A stretch of 64,000 bases of DNA from Ensifer sp. IC3342. GTDB taxonomy: Bacteria; Pseudomonadota; Alphaproteobacteria; Rhizobiales; Rhizobiaceae. The stretch is taken from assembly GCF_020193655.1 (NCBI RefSeq), contig NZ_JADYVE010000004.1, positions 310,001 to 374,000 on the forward strand, read 5' to 3'. Positions within the stretch are counted from its first letter, which is position 1. Each line of letters begins with the position of its first letter. Below are positions 50,794 through 64,000 of the stretch, one piece after another. The notes beneath the pieces are model-generated. The model worked only from the letters and a program-made list of their open reading frames with translations. It did not search any database and was not told the DNA's origin. The translations under genes and the position numbers were made by a program.

Positions 50794-51489
50794 TTACACG
50801 GTTAGATGCCGCCGCGCCTCCGGCGTATCCAGCGTCTCGGCCGGCCCCTCATGCACGAAGGCACCGCGGTCCATGATATAGACGTGATCGGCAAGCTCGC
50901 GGCAGAAGTCGAGATATTGCTCGACGAGCAGGATGGCCATGCCGGTCGAATCCCGCAAGTATTTGATCGCACGGCCGATGTCCTTGATGATCGAGGGCTG
51001 GATACCCTCGGTCGGCTCGTCAAGTACCAGAATCTTGGGGCGCGCTACGAGCGCCCGGCCGATGGCGAGCTGCTGCTGCTGACCGCCGGAAAGATCGCCG
51101 CCGCGACGGCCGAGCATCGTCTTCAACACCGGAAACAGGCTGAAGATGTCGTCGGGAATGGAGCGATCTGCCCGCTTCAGCGGCGCATAACCGGTTTCGA
51201 GATTCTCCCTGACGGTGAGCAAGGGGAAAATCTCGCGACCCTGCGGCACGTAGCCGACGCCGAGCTTTGCCCGCCGAAAGGGCGCCATGCCGTCGAGCGG
51301 GGCGCCGTTGAAGGAGATCGCGCCGCTCGTCACTGGATGCTGGCCGGTGATTGCCCGCAAGAGGCTCGACTTGCCGACGCCGTTGCGCCCGAGCACGCAG
51401 GTGATCTTTCCCATCTCCGCCCCGATCGAGACGTTGCGCAGAGCCTGCGCGGCGCCGTAGTGAAGGCTGACGTTTTCGACGGTCAACAT
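50794..51489 (-). CDS. urtE: Urea ABC transporter ATP-binding protein UrtE
   Basis: 231-residue LivF-type ATPase: VLGRNGVGKSSLLRAITG near residue 32, GGDLSGGQQQQLAIGRALVARPKILVLDEPTEGIQPSII and VEQYLDFCRELADHVYIMDRG. The motif TEGIQPSI is typical of UrtE. Last gene of urtABCDE; with UrtD it powers the UrtB-UrtC pore. Confidence 0.93.
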   Translation of the reverse strand: MLTVENVSLHYGAAQALRNVSIGAEMGKITCVLGRNGVGKSSLLRAITGQHPVTSGAISFNGAPLDGMAPFRRAKLGVGYVPQGREIFPLLTVRENLETGYAPLKRADRSIPDDIFSLFPVLKTMLGRRGGDLSGGQQQQLAIGRALVARPKILVLDEPTEGIQPSIIKDIGRAIKYLRDSTGMAILLVEQYLDFCRELADHVYIMDRGAFVHEGPAETLDTPEARRHLTV

Positions 51490-51519
51490 GGGTCCAGAAC
51501 TCCTTCCGCTCGCGCTCGA

Positions 51520-52272
51520 TCATCGGCCGAGATAGTTTTCGATCACCTTCGGATCGCTGCTGACGAAATCGATAGAGCCCTCCGCCAGAACCGAGCCCTC
51601 GGCAAGGCAAGTCACCTTGACGCCGAGATCACGGACGAAGCCCATGTCGTGCTCGACGACGACAACCGAGCGCGTCCTGGCAATTTCCTTGAGCAGCACG
51701 GCCGTCTCGGCCGTCTCCGCATCGGTCATGCCGGCGACCGGCTCGTCGACGAGCAGGAGCTCCGGCTCTTGCGCGAGCAGCATGCCGATCTCCAGCCATT
51801 GCTTCTGTCCATGCGAAAGGTTGGCGGCGAGGTCGTCGCGGCGGGCCGTGAGCCGCACGGTCGCAAGAATCTCCTCGATGCGAGCCTTGTCCTCCGTCGT
51901 CAGGCGGTAGAACAGTGTCGCGAAGACGCCGCGGCTACGGTTCAGCGCCAGCTCCAGATTGTCCCAGACGGTGTGGTTTTCGAACACGGTCGGCTTCTGG
52001 AACTTCCGCCCGATGCCTAGCTGGGCGATCTCCGCCTCGTCCTTTCGGGTCAGATCGATATCGCCCTTGAAGAAGACCTCGCCCTCGTCGGGTCGGGTCT
52101 TGCCGGTGATGATGTCCATCATCGTCGTCTTGCCGGCGCCGTTCGGACCGATGATTGCTCTGAGCTCGCCCGGCTCGACGACGAAGGAGAGCGAATTCAG
52201 CGCCTTGAAGCCATCGAAGGAGACTGAGACGCCGTCGAGATAGAGCAGGCTCTTGGGTTTCTTCTCTTGCAT
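51520..52272 (-). CDS. urtD: Urea ABC transporter ATP-binding protein UrtD
   Basis: 250-residue LivG-type ATPase: IIGPNGAGKTTMMDIITGKTRPD near residue 43, NLSHGQKQWLEIGMLLAQEPELLLVDEPVAGMTDAETAETA (the LSHGQKQWLEI signature is usual in UrtD) and VVVEHDMGFVRDLGVKVTCL. The start is ATG 52272 (MQEKKPKSLLYL); the frame open to 53481 runs over urtC and is not coding. Confidence 0.94.
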   Translation of the reverse strand: MQEKKPKSLLYLDGVSVSFDGFKALNSLSFVVEPGELRAIIGPNGAGKTTMMDIITGKTRPDEGEVFFKGDIDLTRKDEAEIAQLGIGRKFQKPTVFENHTVWDNLELALNRSRGVFATLFYRLTTEDKARIEEILATVRLTARRDDLAANLSHGQKQWLEIGMLLAQEPELLLVDEPVAGMTDAETAETAVLLKEIARTRSVVVVEHDMGFVRDLGVKVTCLAEGSVLAEGSIDFVSSDPKVIENYLGR

Positions 52273-52277
52273 GACAA

Positions 52278-53453
52278 TCACTCCGCGGCCATCGGTTCGG
52301 CAGCCGGCAGGCCTGCCTCGTCGTCGCTCATTCTTTCGTTCCGGGCGGCCTCGCGATAGGAGCGGCGCCGGACGAGATAGTGCTGTGTCGTGCCGACAAT
52401 GCCCTTCGGCATGAGCAGCGTGACGAGCACGAAAAGCCCGCCTAGCGCAAAGAGCCAGAATTCCGGGAAGGCGGCGGTGAAGATGCTCTTTCCGCCGTTG
52501 ACCAGGATGGCGCCGATGATCGGGCCGATCAGCGTGCCGCGCCCGCCGACCGCCGTCCAGATGACAACCTCGATCGAATTGCCGGGCTCGAACTCGCCGG
52601 GATTGATGATGCCGACCTGCGGCACATACAGGGCGCCGGCTAGACCCGCCATCATCGCCGAGACGGTGAAAGCGAAGAGCTTCATGTGTTCGACGCGGTA
52701 GCCGAGGAACCGGGTGCGACTTTCGGCGTCGCGCAACGCCACCAGCACCTTGCCGAACTTCGAGCGCACGATGCCGGACGTGATGACCAGCGAAATGGCA
52801 AGCGCGAGCGCAGAGGCGGCGAAGAGCGCGGCGCGCGTACCGTCCGCCTGGATGTTGAAGCCGAGAATGTCCTTGAAGTCCGTCAGCCCGTTGTTGCCGC
52901 CGAAGCCCATGTCGTTCCTGAAGAAGGCGAGCAGCAGCGCATAGGTCATGGCCTGGGTGATGATCGAGAGATAGACGCCATTGACGCGCGAGCGGAAGGC
53001 GAACCAGCCGAAGACGAAGGCTAGCAGCCCGGGCACCAAAACGACCATCAGCGCCGCGAACCAGAACATGTCGAAGCCGTACCAGAACCAGGGCAGTTCC
53101 TTCCAGTTGAGGAACACCATGAAGTCCGGCAGGAGTGGGTTGCCGTAGGAACCGCGCGCGCCGATCTGGCGCATCAGATACATGCCCATGGCATAACCGC
53201 CGAGCGCGAAGAAGGCGGCGTGGCCGAGCGAGAGAATGCCGCAGAAGCCCCAGACGAGATCGAGCGCCAGCGCCAGCAGCGCATAGGTCAGGTACTTGCC
53301 GAACAGCGAAACGAGGTAGGTCGGCACGTGCAGTGGATGGTCGGGCGCCGTCAGCAGATTGAGCGCCGGTATGAGAACGGCAAGCGCCAACAGGACCGCC
53401 ACGGCGACGAGAATGGTGCGATCCAGCGACTTGATGAGGAACGAGGTAATCAT
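52278..53453 (-). CDS. urtC: Urea ABC transporter permease UrtC
   Basis: 391-residue LivM-type membrane protein with about ten spans, including YALLALALDLVWGFCGILSLGHAAFFALGGYAMGMYLMRQIG and GFGGNNGLTDFKDILGFNIQ, typical of UrtC. It starts at ATG 53453, overlapping the urtB stop by four bases. A frame running to 53957 is not used. Five bases separate it from urtD. Confidence 0.94.
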   Translation of the reverse strand: MITSFLIKSLDRTILVAVAVLLALAVLIPALNLLTAPDHPLHVPTYLVSLFGKYLTYALLALALDLVWGFCGILSLGHAAFFALGGYAMGMYLMRQIGARGSYGNPLLPDFMVFLNWKELPWFWYGFDMFWFAALMVVLVPGLLAFVFGWFAFRSRVNGVYLSIITQAMTYALLLAFFRNDMGFGGNNGLTDFKDILGFNIQADGTRAALFAASALALAISLVITSGIVRSKFGKVLVALRDAESRTRFLGYRVEHMKLFAFTVSAMMAGLAGALYVPQVGIINPGEFEPGNSIEVVIWTAVGGRGTLIGPIIGAILVNGGKSIFTAAFPEFWLFALGGLFVLVTLLMPKGIVGTTQHYLVRRRSYREAARNERMSDDEAGLPAAEPMAAE

Positions 53454-55066
53454 GCTTCCACCGCCCGACCCTTGAGTGCAAACAGCCCGCGCGGCCGCTT
53501 CTGGATGAAGAGGATGATCAGCACGAGCACGAGGATCTTGCCGAGCACGGCGCCGGCATAGGGCTCGAGGAACTTGTTGAGGATGCCGAGCGAGAAGGCG
53601 CCGACGAGCGTGCCCCAGAGATTGCCGACGCCGCCGAAGACCACGACCATGAAGCTGTCGATGATGTAGCCCTGGCCGAGGTTCGGCGAGACGTTGTCGA
53701 TCTGTGAGAGCGCCACGCCCGCCATGCCGGCAATCCCTGAGCCGAGTGCGAAGGTCAGCGCATCGACCACGGGCGTGCGGATACCCATGGAGGAGGCCAT
53801 CCGCCGGTTTTGCGTCACCGCCCGCATCTGCAGGCCCATCGGTGTCTTTTTCAGGAGGAAGAGCAGGCCGGCAAAGACGGTGAGCGCGAACAGAATGATC
53901 CAGAGACGGTTCCAGGTGATCGTCAAGCCGCCGAGGTCGAAGGCACCGGACATCCACGACGGGTTGCCGACCTCCCGATTGGTAGGCCCGAAGATCGAAC
54001 GCACCGCCTGCTGCAGGATCAGCGATATGCCCCAGGTGGCAAGCAGCGTCTCGAGCGGCCGGCCATAGAGGAAACGGATGACGCCGCGCTCGATCGCCAG
54101 ACCGACGGCGCCGGTGACCAGAAAGGCGAGCGGCAGCGCGATCGCCAGCGACCAGTCGAAAAGCCCGGGAAAGGACGTGCGGACGATCTCCTGCACGAGA
54201 AAGGTCGTATAGGCGCCGAGCATCACCATCTCGCCGTGCGCCATGTTGATGATGCCCATGACGCCGAAGGTGATGGCGAGACCGATTGCGGCAAGCAGCA
54301 GCACCGAGCCGAGCGAGAGCCCGTACCAGACATTCTGGCCGGCCGCCCAGAGCGCCTGGCTCTGCTCGATACTCGCGAGCGCCGCCTCGATCTCCGGCTT
54401 CAATGTCTCGTCGGCGGTGCCGAGGGCGGCCGAGAGAATCGAAAGCGCCTCGCGACCGCCGTTTTGCTTCAGGGTTTGAACGGCCTGCCGCTTCTCCTCG
54501 CCGGGTCGGTCGGAGGTGAGGATCGCCGTTGCGCGCGCCTGTTCGAGCAACGCGCGGATGGCCGCATCCTTCTCGGCAGCAAGCGCGTTTTCGATGGTCG
54601 GAAGCGCGTCCGCGTGGGACGACTGCATGATGGACTGTGCTGCCTTGAAGCGTTGATTGCGATCGGGGCTCAGCAGCGTCAAGCCGCCGAGCGCGGCGCG
54701 AACGGCACGGCGGACGCTGTTGTTGACCTTGATCTTCTGCAGTGCGCTCTTCGGCGCCTCGCCGACGCTCTCGCCGGAAAGCGGATCGGTCAGCGTCAGG
54801 TTCGCGCCCTCCTCACGCGTGAGGAACACCTCGCCATCGGCCTTGCGGGCATAAAGATTGCCGTCGCCGAGCGCTTCCAGAATCGGCACGATCTTCGGAT
54901 CGCCACTCTTCGCAAGCGCCGCGATGTGCTCGTCCATGTTGGAGAGCTTCGCCGTGCCAAGCGCATTCACGAGGTCGCGCAGCGGCTCCTGCGCCCTCAC
55001 GTCCGCGGTCGGGATCACGGTCAAAAGAATCAGCGCCACAAGCACGGTTTGTAGGATGCGGTACAT
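53450..55066 (-). CDS. urtB: Urea ABC transporter permease UrtB
   Basis: 538 residues: signal-like N-terminus (ILQTVLVALILLTVIPTADVRA), a periplasmic helical region of about 200 residues with repeats around KIVPILEALGDGNLYARK, then a LivH-type permease (AIGLAITFGVMGIINMAHGEMVMLGAYTTFLVQ, LLATWGISLILQQAVRSIFGPTNREVGNP). The long extracytoplasmic extension is characteristic of UrtB and separates it from branched-chain amino-acid permeases. Confidence 0.94.
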   Translation of the reverse strand: MYRILQTVLVALILLTVIPTADVRAQEPLRDLVNALGTAKLSNMDEHIAALAKSGDPKIVPILEALGDGNLYARKADGEVFLTREEGANLTLTDPLSGESVGEAPKSALQKIKVNNSVRRAVRAALGGLTLLSPDRNQRFKAAQSIMQSSHADALPTIENALAAEKDAAIRALLEQARATAILTSDRPGEEKRQAVQTLKQNGGREALSILSAALGTADETLKPEIEAALASIEQSQALWAAGQNVWYGLSLGSVLLLAAIGLAITFGVMGIINMAHGEMVMLGAYTTFLVQEIVRTSFPGLFDWSLAIALPLAFLVTGAVGLAIERGVIRFLYGRPLETLLATWGISLILQQAVRSIFGPTNREVGNPSWMSGAFDLGGLTITWNRLWIILFALTVFAGLLFLLKKTPMGLQMRAVTQNRRMASSMGIRTPVVDALTFALGSGIAGMAGVALSQIDNVSPNLGQGYIIDSFMVVVFGGVGNLWGTLVGAFSLGILNKFLEPYAGAVLGKILVLVLIILFIQKRPRGLFALKGRAVEA

Positions 55067-55120
55067 TCGCCCCTCACACGGGTTTCCGCGTCGGTTCGCG
55101 GCGCGGCATCGGTGAAACGC

Positions 55121-55154
55121 CCCTCCGTCCGAATGGACGCTTTCGGACGGAGGG
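55121..55154. promoter_or_regulatory. Hairpin in the urtA-urtB gap
   Basis: Perfect 13-base arms CCCTCCGTCCGAA and TTCGGACGGAGGG around an 8-base loop. It lies 87 bases after the urtA stop and 54 before urtB. It probably stabilizes the urtA message or stops part of the transcripts, giving more binding protein than permease, a common feature in ABC operons. Confidence 0.6.
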
Positions 55155-55241
55155 TATTTCGATCTATCGGTTCGTCATGAAACGATGTTGTCGAAGAAGG
55201 CCGACATGGTCTTTTTCGAGAGCAAGTGCTTCGTCATGAAA

Positions 55242-56534
55242 TCAGGAACCCTTGCCGCCGCATTTGCCCGTGGCGATGTTGAAGTTGCCGCAGGACATCG
55301 GCGCCCGCCAGTCGGAGATTAGGTCCTTCGAGTCCGGCAGGTAATCCGACCACTCGTCGCCGACCACGAGGCCGGGCGTTTCCCAGACTGTCTCGAACTG
55401 GCCGTCCGACTGAATCTCGCCGATCAGCACCGGCTTGGTGATGTGATGGTTCGGCATCATCGTGGAATAGCCGCCGGAGAGGTTCGGCACGGAAATGCCG
55501 ACCATCGCATCGAGCACGGCGTCGGTGTCGGTGGTGCCGGCCTTCTCGACCGCCTTCAGCCACATGTTGAAGCCGATATAGTGGGCTTCCATCGGGTCGT
55601 TGGTGACCCGCTTGTCGTTCTTGGTGTAGGCCTTCCAGGTCTTGATGAATTCGGCATTCGCCGGATTGTCGACCGACTGGAAATAGTTCCAGGCGGCGAG
55701 GTGGCCGACGAGCGGGCCGGTGTCGAGCCCGGCGAGTTCTTCCTCGCCGACGGAGAAGGCGACGACCGGGATGTCTTCGGCCTTGATCCCCTGGTTGGCG
55801 AGTTCCTTGTAGAAGGGCACGTTCGCGTCGCCGTTGATCGTCGAGACGACGGCGGTCTTCTTGCCGGCCGAGCCGAACTTCTTGATGTCGGAGACGATCG
55901 TCTGCCAATCGGAGTGGCCGAAGGGCGTGTAGTTGATCATGATGTCTTCGGGCTTCACGCCCTTGGAGACCAGGTAGGCCTCGAGGATCTTGTTGGTGGT
56001 GCGCGGATAGACGTAGTCCGTGCCTGCGAGCACCCAGCGCTCGACCTCTTCATTCTCCATCAGATAATCGACGGCGGGAATCGCCTGCTGGTTCGGCGCG
56101 GCACCGGTGTAGAAGACGTTGCGCTGGCTTTCCTCGCCCTCGTACTGGACAGGGTAGAAGAGGATCGAGTTCAGTTCCTCGAAGACCGGCAGCACCGATT
56201 TGCGCGACACGGAAGTCCAGCAACCGAAGACGGCCGAAACTTTGTCGACGGAAATGAGTTCGCGCGCCTTTTCGGCAAAGAGCGGCCAATCGGAGGCCGG
56301 GTCGACGACGACGGCCTCCAGCTTCTTGCCAAGCAGGCCGCCCTTCTTGTTCTGCTCGTCGATCAGCATGAGCATGGCGTCTTTCAGCGTCGTCTCGGAG
56401 ATCGCCATGGTGCCGGAAAGCGAATGAAGAATGCCGACCTTGATCGTGTCCTCGGCGGCGAAGGCGCCGTTGAACGCAGTCGTCGAAAGGGCGGCAGCGA
56501 GGAATGCGCCGCAAACGCGTGCCCTGATAGTCAT
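55242..56534 (-). CDS. urtA: Urea ABC transporter substrate-binding protein UrtA
   Basis: 430-residue periplasmic urea receptor with signal peptide (GAFLAAALSTTAFNGAFA) and the UrtA core: DTIKVGILHSLSGTMAISETTLKDAMLMLIDEQNKKGGLLGK near residue 28, FGCWTSVSRKSVLPVFEELNSILFYPVQYEGEESQRNVFYTGAAPNQQ and VAFSVGEEELAGL. The start at 56534 (MTIRARVCG) replaces a frame start at 56606. First gene of urtABCDE. No urease genes are in the window. Confidence 0.95.
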   Translation of the reverse strand: MTIRARVCGAFLAAALSTTAFNGAFAAEDTIKVGILHSLSGTMAISETTLKDAMLMLIDEQNKKGGLLGKKLEAVVVDPASDWPLFAEKARELISVDKVSAVFGCWTSVSRKSVLPVFEELNSILFYPVQYEGEESQRNVFYTGAAPNQQAIPAVDYLMENEEVERWVLAGTDYVYPRTTNKILEAYLVSKGVKPEDIMINYTPFGHSDWQTIVSDIKKFGSAGKKTAVVSTINGDANVPFYKELANQGIKAEDIPVVAFSVGEEELAGLDTGPLVGHLAAWNYFQSVDNPANAEFIKTWKAYTKNDKRVTNDPMEAHYIGFNMWLKAVEKAGTTDTDAVLDAMVGISVPNLSGGYSTMMPNHHITKPVLIGEIQSDGQFETVWETPGLVVGDEWSDYLPDSKDLISDWRAPMSCGNFNIATGKCGGKGS

Positions 56535-56708
56535 CGGATTGAACCCCTCTAGTTCTGGTCGCGCAACGGGGCGATGATTATTCTTGGCCGTTGCTTCACC
56601 GATCATCCGATGTTCGTGCTGCGCTGCACATACGTCATTCTACGTAGGTGGCGGGGGGAAGAAGGAAGTGTGCGAGGCCTTTCGTTACCGACGATCTGCC
56701 CGAGCTAT

Positions 56709-61854: not shown

Positions 61855-64000
61855 ATGGCGGCACGCCAGCGCATCATTCCCGTTCGACGAGAATACAATC
61901 GCTGGGTCGCCAACCAGACGCTTGAGGATTATGCGCTGCGGTTTACCGCCAAAAGTGCGCGGCGTTTTTCCTCCGAGCGCATCTCGCAGACGGCGATCGG
62001 CGCGATCTCGTTCCTGGCGCTTGAAGCCATCGGCGGTGCCATCACGATGTCCTACGGCACGACGAATGCGATCGTCGCGATCCTCGTCGCCAGCATCATG
62101 ATCCTGCTCGTCGGCCTGCCGATCAGCCGCTACGCGATCCGCCATGGCGTCGACATCGACCTTCTGACACGCGGCGCGAGCTTCGGCTATATCGGCTCGA
62201 CCATCACCTCGCTGATCTATGCAAGCTTCACCTTCATTCTCTTTGCGATCGAGGCGTCGATCATGTCCGGGGCGCTGGAGCTTGCCCTCGGCGTGCCGCT
62301 CTGGATCGGCTACATCGTCAGCGCCGTCGTGGTAATCCCGCTTGTGACCCACGGTGTACGCCTCATCAGCAAGTTCCAACTGATGACGCAACCTTTCTGG
62401 ATCGTGCTCAACATCCTGCCCTTCGCCTTCATCGCGCTCGCCGATTGGGAAAAGGTGGGACTGTGGCTTGCCTATTCCGGCATCCACCATGCCTCAGGTC
62501 CTTCAGGCACGCTTGCGCCCTTCGATCTCGTGGAGTTCGGCGCCGCCTCCGCCGTGATCTTCGCGCTGATGGCGCAGATCGGCGAACAGGTCGACTTCCT
62601 CCGCTTCCTGCCGCCCGATGGCCAGAGGAAGCTGCATCACCGGATCGCGGTGTTTCTCGCCGGCTCCGGCTGGGTGATCGTCGGCGCACCGAAGCTGCTG
62701 GCGGGTTCATTTCTCGTCGTGCTGGCGCTCAGTGCCGGCGTGCCCTCGACGCGGGCCGCCGACCCGGCGCAGATGTACTACACGGCTTTCGGCTACATTT
62801 TCCCGTCGGATACGGCAGCGCTTCTTTTGATGGTCGCCTTCGTCGTCATCTCGCAGCTGAAGATCAATGTGATGAACGCCTATGCCGGCTCGCTCGCCTG
62901 GTCGAACTTCTTCTCGCGGCTTACCCACAGCCATCCCGGCCGCGTCATCTGGCTGGTCTTCAACGTGGCGATCGCGCTCCTCCTGATGGAGCTCGGCATC
63001 TACCGGCTGCTCGAGGAAACGCTCGGTATCTTTTCGATCATCGCCATGGCCTGGCTCTGCGCCATCTCGGCCGATCTCTTCGTCAACAAGCCGCTGGCCT
63101 TGTCACCGCCCGGCATCGAGTTCAAGCGTGCGCATCTTTATGACGTCAATCCCGTCGGTCTCGGGACCATGGGGATCTCGACAATCCTCGCGCTTGCGGC
63201 GCATTTCGGCGCCTTCGGCGATGTCGCCGCCTCGCTCGCCCCCTATATCGCGCTCGTCACGGCCTTTATCGCCTCGCCGCTGATCGCCTGGGCGACGGAA
63301 GGAAAATTCTATCTCGCGCGCAAGCCGCGCAAGAGCTGGTTCCGGGAGAGCGAGATCGCCTGCTCGATCTGCGAGCATCCGTTCGAGCCGGAAGACATGG
63401 CCTGGTGTCCAGCCTATGCGGCGCCGATCTGCTCGCTCTGCTGCTCGCTCGACAGCCGCTGCCACGACATGTGCAAGCCGAAAGCACGACTGAACACGCA
63501 GATCGCGACGGTCGCAAAGGCGATTCTGCCGGAGGCGGTGACTGCAAAGCTCGCCACAAGGCTCGGCCGCTACGCGATCTCCGCCCTCCTCTCGATCACC
63601 GGTATCGGCATCATTCTCGCGATGATCGCTCATCAGACGACCGCCGCCTCGCCCGAGACCGCCGCCGTCGTCGAACGCACGATCGCGATCGTCTTCTTCG
63701 TCTTTGCGATCGTGACCGGCGTCGTCTGCTGGTTCTACGTGCTCGCCCATGACAGCCGCGTCGTGGCGGAAGAGGAATCCTCGCGCCAGAACACGCTGCT
63801 CCTCAAGGAAATCGCCGCGCACAAGAAGACCGACGCCGCCTTGCAGAACGCCAAGGAAGCGGCGGAAGCAGCGAACCGGGCGAAGAGCCGCTATGTCGTG
63901 GGCTTGAGCCACGAACTGCGCACGCCGCTCAACGCCGTGCTCGGCTATGCGCAGATCCTCGAACGCGACGACACCATACCGCCCTCAAGGCAGGGAGCGA
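61855..64000 (+). CDS. NCS1-type permease fused to Cys cluster and histidine kinase (3' end outside window)
   Basis: An uninterrupted frame of 715 codons runs off the right edge. Residues 1-490 are a 12-span nucleobase-cation-symporter-1 (purine/cytosine/allantoin permease) domain (NQTLEDYALRFTAKSARRFS, then SQTAIGAISFLALEAIGGAI; YGTTNAIVAILVASIMILLVGLPISRYA). Residues 503-540 hold eight cysteines (503, 506, 518, 526, 529, 530, 536, 540), a likely zinc or Fe-S site. Two more spans (about 577-630) and a coiled linker lead to a HisKA domain with His686 in LSHELRTPLNAVLGYAQIL. The catalytic ATPase domain and any receiver lie beyond the window. It should sense or transport a nucleobase-like compound at the inner membrane. 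GAGG precedes ATG 61855. Confidence 0.85.
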   Translation, partial: MAARQRIIPVRREYNRWVANQTLEDYALRFTAKSARRFSSERISQTAIGAISFLALEAIGGAITMSYGTTNAIVAILVASIMILLVGLPISRYAIRHGVDIDLLTRGASFGYIGSTITSLIYASFTFILFAIEASIMSGALELALGVPLWIGYIVSAVVVIPLVTHGVRLISKFQLMTQPFWIVLNILPFAFIALADWEKVGLWLAYSGIHHASGPSGTLAPFDLVEFGAASAVIFALMAQIGEQVDFLRFLPPDGQRKLHHRIAVFLAGSGWVIVGAPKLLAGSFLVVLALSAGVPSTRAADPAQMYYTAFGYIFPSDTAALLLMVAFVVISQLKINVMNAYAGSLAWSNFFSRLTHSHPGRVIWLVFNVAIALLLMELGIYRLLEETLGIFSIIAMAWLCAISADLFVNKPLALSPPGIEFKRAHLYDVNPVGLGTMGISTILALAAHFGAFGDVAASLAPYIALVTAFIASPLIAWATEGKFYLARKPRKSWFRESEIACSICEHPFEPEDMAWCPAYAAPICSLCCSLDSRCHDMCKPKARLNTQIATVAKAILPEAVTAKLATRLGRYAISALLSITGIGIILAMIAHQTTAASPETAAVVERTIAIVFFVFAIVTGVVCWFYVLAHDSRVVAEEESSRQNTLLLKEIAAHKKTDAALQNAKEAAEAANRAKSRYVVGLSHELRTPLNAVLGYAQILERDDTIPPSRQGA

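Follow-up and report, generated by a model that had tools for sequence, protein, structure and literature searches.

A putative urea and short-chain-amide transceptor: an NCS1-like transporter domain fused to a hybrid histidine kinase and associated with a conserved palindrome upstream of urtA

We describe a protein of a soil bacterium in which a 12-TM NCS1-like transporter domain, an eight-cysteine cluster and a hybrid histidine kinase share one reading frame. Judging from sequence comparison and a predicted model, it is likely to be a transceptor for urea or short-chain amides that controls urea uptake through a partner regulator and a palindromic site. The kinase is probably a sensor for urea/small-amide genes, since these lie nearby in most of the relatives sampled, often with a matching palindrome. 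The architecture and its conservation, the urea/amide linkage, and the palindrome with its kinase association are documented below.

Results

The window, by which we mean the whole 64,000-nucleotide stretch of DNA that was analyzed (G000:C60:310001-374000), is part of a 7.4-Mb genome. At its end lies the 5' part (61855-64000, plus strand, residues 1-715 of 1124) of a hybrid sensor kinase gene, an open frame with its ATG at 61855 and with 130 homologous loci. The frame remains open beyond the window up to a stop codon at L006:11227-11229, 1229 bases past the window end, which gives a product of 1124 aa. A sequence-only reading had placed a transporter, eight Cys within 38 residues and a HisKA domain with His686 in one frame, and this was confirmed. 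The transporter domain (residues 1-490, 61855-63324, plus strand) is recognized from hydropathy, an AF2 model, Foldseek and a solo homolog; the Cys cluster covers residues 503-540 (63361-63474, plus strand); and HisKA (residues 677-742, plus strand from 63883 to 64000 and on past the window; Pfam PF00512, E 1.6e-16) holds the phosphoacceptor His686 within SHELRTP (codon 63910-63912). The same reading had made an intact kinase depend on what follows position 64000. HATPase_c (789-896) and REC (922-1030) do follow in frame, both over the Pfam cut-off, and no stop or frame error precedes the ATPase domain. Two extra TM helices between the Cys cluster and the kinase (63559-63771, plus strand) were absent from that earlier description: hydropathy gives 12 peaks before C503 and two after it (574-592 and 612-630), and the AF2 model has helices at 569-598 and 600-639. 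This second AF2 model (55 sequences) reached a pLDDT of 87.8 and a pTM of 0.88, and its TM layout agrees with the hydropathy. In alignment A2, which comprises 51 of the 55 non-redundant sequences, H686, N800, G859, G861 and G863 of the kinase are invariant, and D970 and K1019 are kept at 90% or more of the 51 rows, two of which are without a receiver. With its HisKA histidine, HATPase_c domain and receiver Asp and Lys, the kinase half is by sequence a hybrid histidine kinase.

The next gene downstream encodes P0002, a protein of 306 aa with REC and LuxR-type HTH domains (PF00072 and PF00196, both over cut-off). On this domain content, a REC followed by a GerE HTH, it is classed as a LuxR/NarL-type response regulator. 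The kinase and regulator genes overlap by eight bases and are for this reason probably co-transcribed. Because kinase core and regulator gene are both present at 128 of the 130 homologous loci, the fusion of transporter and kinase is more than chance. Beyond the window end, the pair is followed by dctA-dctB-dctD-like genes (L006:12243-17025), which are likewise annotated in S. meliloti pSymB; among 94 homologous loci compared, the dctA cluster occurs at Sinorhizobium loci only.

The transporter domain is best read, from sequence comparison and the predicted model, as a divergent NCS1-type clade in or beside NCS1. No direct family match leads there. Pfam and NCBIfam give no relevant family for residues 1-560, and PF02133 matches none of the 14 rows of the sensor alignment A1 at E up to 10. 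When 58 class genomes were searched with PF02133, this genome gave no match and the matches listed include no sensor gene. A PDB sequence search with A1 alone retrieved no NCS1 structure, its only match being a non-significant one to a zinc finger, and searches with single solo relatives returned nothing useful. The fold and the intermediates point the other way. In a Foldseek search of the AF2 model the top five were all CodB or Mhp1 entries, with TM scores by target length, for this predicted model, of 0.77 for CodB and 0.65-0.67 for Mhp1, and SSS-type (SLC5/SSS) structures ranked below them; the weaker first AF2 model also matched NCS1 structures. Together with the 12 hydropathy peaks, this describes a predicted NCS1-type LeuT fold with 12 TM. 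The solo protein P0003 (41% identical over 506 columns; hhalign probability 100% to A1) passes PF02133 with 37.7 bits against a cut-off of 23.5. L157, matched by the A1 profile at 6.6e-46, passes with 36.4 bits, and the solo L228 passes as well; the solo L229 is below the cut-off. A profile of sensors, solos and true NCS1 rows matches CodB at 3.3e-20 and Mhp1 at 9e-11. It is these fold matches and the homologs passing PF02133 that favor a divergent NCS1 type despite the absent Pfam call. The earlier description of a complete NCS1 permease thus survives as to type, by fold and intermediates, although it has no direct Pfam or NCBIfam match; a domain search that did not call NCS1 for residues 1-490 had been named as counting against it, and Pfam made no such call, whereas fold and transitive homology support the assignment.

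CodB and Mhp1 share the predicted fold of the sensor domain and are both matched by the mixed profile. The sensor differs from them in its fused kinase, its Cys domain, a QIGEQ insertion before the DxxRF motif, and a Lys-Ile pair aligned with two Mhp1 residues that we take to be its sodium site. Given this Lys-Ile, any transport is probably not sodium-coupled.

The eight Cys stand at 503, 506, 518, 526, 529, 530, 536 and 540. Their register, C-x2-C-x11-C-x7-C-x2-CC-x5-C-x3-C, recurs in 130/130 homologs; of 18 further frames 17 share it, and the remaining one is a solo transporter. Among three solo relatives with the Cys domain, L229 retains all eight, and P0003 and L228 retain only C503, C506, C526 and C529. 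This 4+4 split suggests two metal sites, one made by 503/506/526/529 and the other by 518/530/536/540. The AF2 model gives the domain short strands and one helix (block pLDDT 83-89), and the best PDB sequence match of the region, a zinc finger, is not significant (E 5.9). Since solo transporters retain Cys, the cluster goes with the transporter and is not kinase-specific, and since they share these residues, a structural zinc knuckle is likelier, on sequence grounds, than an Fe-S input. The metal or Fe-S site of the sequence-only reading is upheld in part: a metal site is likely, but Fe-S input to the kinase is weakened by the solo transporters that carry the same Cys.

The cluster could still be the actual input, sensing redox or metal status, or the input could be general nitrogen status, with the transporter a mere membrane scaffold. 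The constant register of the eight Cys in every one of the 130 homologs would fit such a role, as would a TM8 position where the four aligned solo relatives have Ser and all 130 sensors have Ala. However, CodB also has Ala at this site in the alignment, and for the same reason we dropped the Ser-to-Ala change as a mark of lost sodium coupling. The transporter part is, moreover, conserved at least as well as the kinase core at 128/128 loci with both, and the retention of all eight Cys in one solo transporter makes the cluster part of the transporter module. We regard a scaffold role as unlikely and favor a transporter-derived domain that senses urea or a small amide.

The solo relatives bear on the ligand. 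P0003 is Klebsiella WP_002916878 (L201:7944-9551), which is annotated as a 'cytosine permease' and lies directly after urease genes; it has no kinase and is likely, from its sequence, to be a transporter, and it may carry urea rather than cytosine. Its frame ends inside the Cys domain, and the tblastn match continues about 45 bases past the stop. L228 directly follows a urease operon. L229 is the first gene of an operon with fmdA and amiE. A kinase/regulator pair is divergent from this operon, the palindrome described below lies between the two, and the transporter occupies the place taken elsewhere by urtABCDE. Downstream of the more distant solo L157 come a nitrilase-like gene and AmiC- and AmiR-like genes (assigned by reading). 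In a tree of 78 rows made in quick mode, a branch with an SH-aLRT of 99 sets the 65 sensors apart from the other rows, L229 is next (92) and the urease-linked pair falls outside; the quick mode and the long outgroup branches make its rooting weak.

This genome has one copy of the sensor kinase. At an E of 0.001 or below, matches occur in 16 of 240 class genomes, and 14 of these, this genome included, are full-length; 59 of 398 phylum genomes match, weak ones counted. A scan of assembled-genome contigs gave at least 593 relatives, and matches are also present in 541 plasmid records, of which 342 are from Klebsiella. The nearest named match of the transporter domain, among those listed, is from Sinorhizobium (S. 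psoraleae, 97%). The annotations seen were 'ATP-binding protein', 'response regulator', 'hybrid sensor histidine kinase/response regulator' and 'Aerobic respiration control sensor protein ArcB', and the records of many relatives carry no annotated name. Neighborhoods were compared in four samples: the best-scoring 80 of the at least 593 genome contigs, mostly Rhizobiales kin; 34 phylum places hand-picked from 57 with E below 1e-200; 13 class loci; and 15 Gammaproteobacterial loci.

In the window itself, urtABCDE lies on the minus strand at 50794-56606, 5.2 kb from the kinase. The genes for the urea ABC transporter binding protein, urtA (55242-56606, likely true start 56534; TIGR03407, 573.9 bits, cut-off 492.75), and for the permease, urtB (53450-55066; TIGR03409, 436.3 bits, cut-off 250.3), are followed by a urtC-like permease gene (52278-53453, an open frame in the same place and order as in homologous loci), a urtD-like ATPase gene (51523-52280, ends approximate; tblastn 96% to the L023 gene) and a urtE-like ATPase gene (50794-51489, an open frame whose first residues read like the L023 cluster-0 gene). 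A long segment with a HEAT-repeat match extends UrtB at its N terminus.

When the surroundings of the kinase, in stretches no longer than about 20 kb, were searched by tblastn for UrtA, FmdA, AmiE, AmiF, UreC, UreD and UreG, at least one of these urea, amidase or urease markers was present at 34/34 phylum loci, 10/13 class loci, 77/80 genome contigs (the best of at least 593) and 8/15 Gammaproteobacterial loci, and in 0/20 control regions of the same genomes. The loci with no marker were L109, L110, L113, L203, L070, L077, L085 and seven Gammaproteobacterial ones, five of which are stretches under 16 kb. Kinase and urtA are divergent in 43 of 44 pairs from the class, phylum and Gammaproteobacterial samples, with a spacing of 288-642 bp in 35 of these. 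Two kinds of locus recur: one has a true urtABCDE, often with urease, and the other, an amide kind, has a UrtA-like protein about 40% identical together with formamidase and amidase. On a Raoultella plasmid a urt-like/amiF cluster adjoins the kinase ortholog. The Klebsiella urea-uptake cluster UrtABC/AmiF is discussed in a paper whose main text does not contain the terms 'histidine kinase' or 'two-component' (PMC13060141). In a Paracoccus locus (L204:7564-13656), a shorter kinase of the clade has fmdA and an AmiS/UreI-type gene as neighbors, and the response regulators there are separate. The link to nitrogen scavenging that had been drawn from neighboring genes is borne out through the urea transporter and through the urt, amidase and urease genes near the kinase across the samples; the RidA-like gene cited alongside has no such standing, clustering with no called frame in the other 93 loci.

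Classical NCS1 ligands are nucleobases, hydantoin and allantoin, and the domain might sense one of these, urea uptake then being controlled because urea is a breakdown product. NCS1 is indeed the nearest fold, Asn341 aligns with an Mhp1 residue that presumably binds hydantoin, and one Azospirillum locus with no urea/amide marker has the kinase by xanthine-dehydrogenase-type genes. Yet formamidase, amidase and urease genes are what recurs near the kinase, the solo relatives are located in urease and amidase operons, and purine breakdown would leave the amidase-type loci unexplained. Of 272 script-called candidates, 140 marker-free neighbor frames (at most three per locus) were taken from 47 class and phylum loci; the Pfam families found in at least three of them were ABC ATPases (with the overlapping AAA_21), UreJ, UreF, UreE, chemotaxis-receptor and EAL/GGDEF families, and no purine or pyrimidine catabolic family was among the 25 commonest of 146. 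A nucleobase or allantoin ligand, as the sequence-only reading had proposed, is thus unsupported and in our judgment quite improbable; neighbors and the common palindrome indicate urea and short-chain amides.

Upstream of urtA, at 56631-56646, is the palindrome TACGTCATTCTACGTA, a proposed binding site of the regulator that is conserved in homologous loci with the consensus ATACGTCA-NN-TGACGTA (TACGTCA-NN-TGACGTA). An unguided count of dyads in the amide-type divergent regions ranked TACG-N8-CGTA first (31/43). This core is present in 82 of 99 kinase-urtA intergenic regions (51/56 urea-type, 31/43 amide-type) against a Markov shuffle expectation of about 0.2 in each region set, and in eight of the 17 regions without it a site agrees with the consensus at 12 or more of the 14 bases, a level reached in 1/400 control segments of 500 bp. 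Control regions totaling 380,020 bases had three cores. Other strong dyads (ACCG-N8-GTCA and the like) were set aside, since those traced fall in the end of the urtA coding sequence, which the regions also covered. At 23 loci, mostly of Rhizobiales kin, kinase and urtA are at least 2.2 kb apart; in 23/23 the palindrome is upstream of urtA, 134-176 bp ahead of the aligned UrtA segment. In the present genome, 56631-56646 is the sole mismatch-free match to TACGTCN5ACGTA, with a looser copy, TACGTN6ACGTA, at C49:34862; the pattern is not enriched there (20 matches when one mismatch is allowed, against 101 for its reversed control), and within the window alone it is not significant, a match occurring in 26/100 shuffles. 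At L109:7727 and L110:11237 the palindrome lies just upstream of the kinase, in stretches with no urea/amide marker.

Might the palindrome serve another regulator of urt, with the kinase pair controlling something else and merely adjoining these genes? The exact core lies no more than 700 bp upstream of the kinase or UrtA at 75 of the 80 genome contigs (best of at least 593), 9/13 class loci and 6/15 Gammaproteobacterial loci, and at 17/34 phylum loci, where its absence from half of the sample would suit a separate regulator. Against this, the palindrome is in 0/19 urtA upstream regions (600 bp) of class genomes that have no kinase, in a control for which 54 genomes gave a urtA match and the 30 best loci were read; at L229 it stands between the kinase and a target other than urt; and the genes between kinase and urtA vary among loci. 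We consider a separate regulator highly improbable, a slight chance at most, and keep to the partner regulator as the protein that would bind the palindrome. In 10 of 11 kinase-bearing genomes, the exception being the present one, no palindrome was found within 600 bp of the urea-type urtA that was examined. Two of the ten (G175 and G225) have it nearer the kinase, and in the other eight the urtA examined is at least 9 kb from the kinase or on another contig. Near the kinase of urease-only Gammaproteobacterial loci, no exact palindrome was found.

Discussion

We infer the ligand, the direction of signaling, the metal, the phosphotransfer route and the binding of the regulator to its operator, and propose the following mechanism. 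The NCS1-type domain, derived from a urea/short-chain-amide transporter, would bind urea or a small amide, and the resulting conformational change may pass through the cytoplasmic, zinc-knuckle-like Cys domain and the two-helix TM hairpin to the HisKA/HATPase core. His686 could then pass its phosphoryl group to Asp970 in the attached receiver, to Asp59 of the partner REC-LuxR regulator, or to both. The regulator would bind TACGTCA-NN-TGACGTA upstream of urtA and activate urtABCDE; in other bacteria it may activate fmd/ami operons instead.

CbrA, CrbS and RpuS are SLC5/STAC histidine kinases, in which a transporter domain is fused to a kinase; among them CrbS is of the hybrid type and has a LuxR-type partner, and CrbR and RpuR require repeat motifs in their target promoters (PMC13022988, PMC5715377, PMC9100948). 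As described in the cited passages, these systems resemble ours in the transporter-kinase fusion and, for CrbS, in the hybrid kinase with its LuxR-type partner. They differ from it in that the present kinase has an NCS1-like domain, a linker made of an eight-Cys domain and a TM hairpin, linked urea/amide genes and the palindrome TACGTCA-NN-TGACGTA. The SSF (SLC5) family is absent from its Pfam matches at E up to 1; no STAC match was listed in the Pfam search, although Pfam may hold no STAC model. In Sinorhizobium fredii, RpuS/R controls the transporter gene mctP (PMC9100948). In Ks-Amt5, too, a transporter for a nitrogen source has been recruited as the sensing part of a histidine kinase, in its case an Amt domain and ammonium, and the abstract of that work mentions no Cys cluster, unlike what is seen here (PMC5764959). 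By analogy, the simplest account of our kinase would be a transceptor that controls its own uptake operon, like RpuS/R with mctP (PMC9100948) and Ks-Amt5 (PMC5764959). In the full text of open-licence papers we found no account of this family, nor a proposed urea/short-chain-amide sensor of such build.

SLC5 and Amt domains are both known from fusions to kinases, and an NCS1-type domain would be a further recruitment. The pair proposed here offers a concrete, testable regulator and operator through which rhizobia and other bacteria would control urea uptake, and the close solo relatives open the direct question of how a transporter becomes a sensor.

The front half of the protein also occurs with other outputs. 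In one Gammaproteobacterial genome (L231:6852-10520, minus strand) transporter and eight-Cys domain are fused to PAS-GGDEF-EAL, a c-di-GMP output, and at L232 the same front half precedes PAS-PAS-HisKA-HATPase-REC. The NCS1-like core and Cys domain may therefore be a portable urea/small-amide input module, with a single origin from a urease/amidase-linked transporter and later attachment to HisKA-HATPase, HisKA-HATPase-REC, PAS hybrid kinases and PAS-GGDEF-EAL; the module and its own operator together would make up an undescribed and widespread urea/amide system of Pseudomonadota, a proposal on which we are evenly divided. On a Streptomyces plasmid, a gene at L205:5956-7938 combines an NCS1-like domain with a CxxC-CxxC tail and an SCP2 domain, and adjoins a 2-nitroimidazole nitrohydrolase gene and molybdenum-hydroxylase-type genes.
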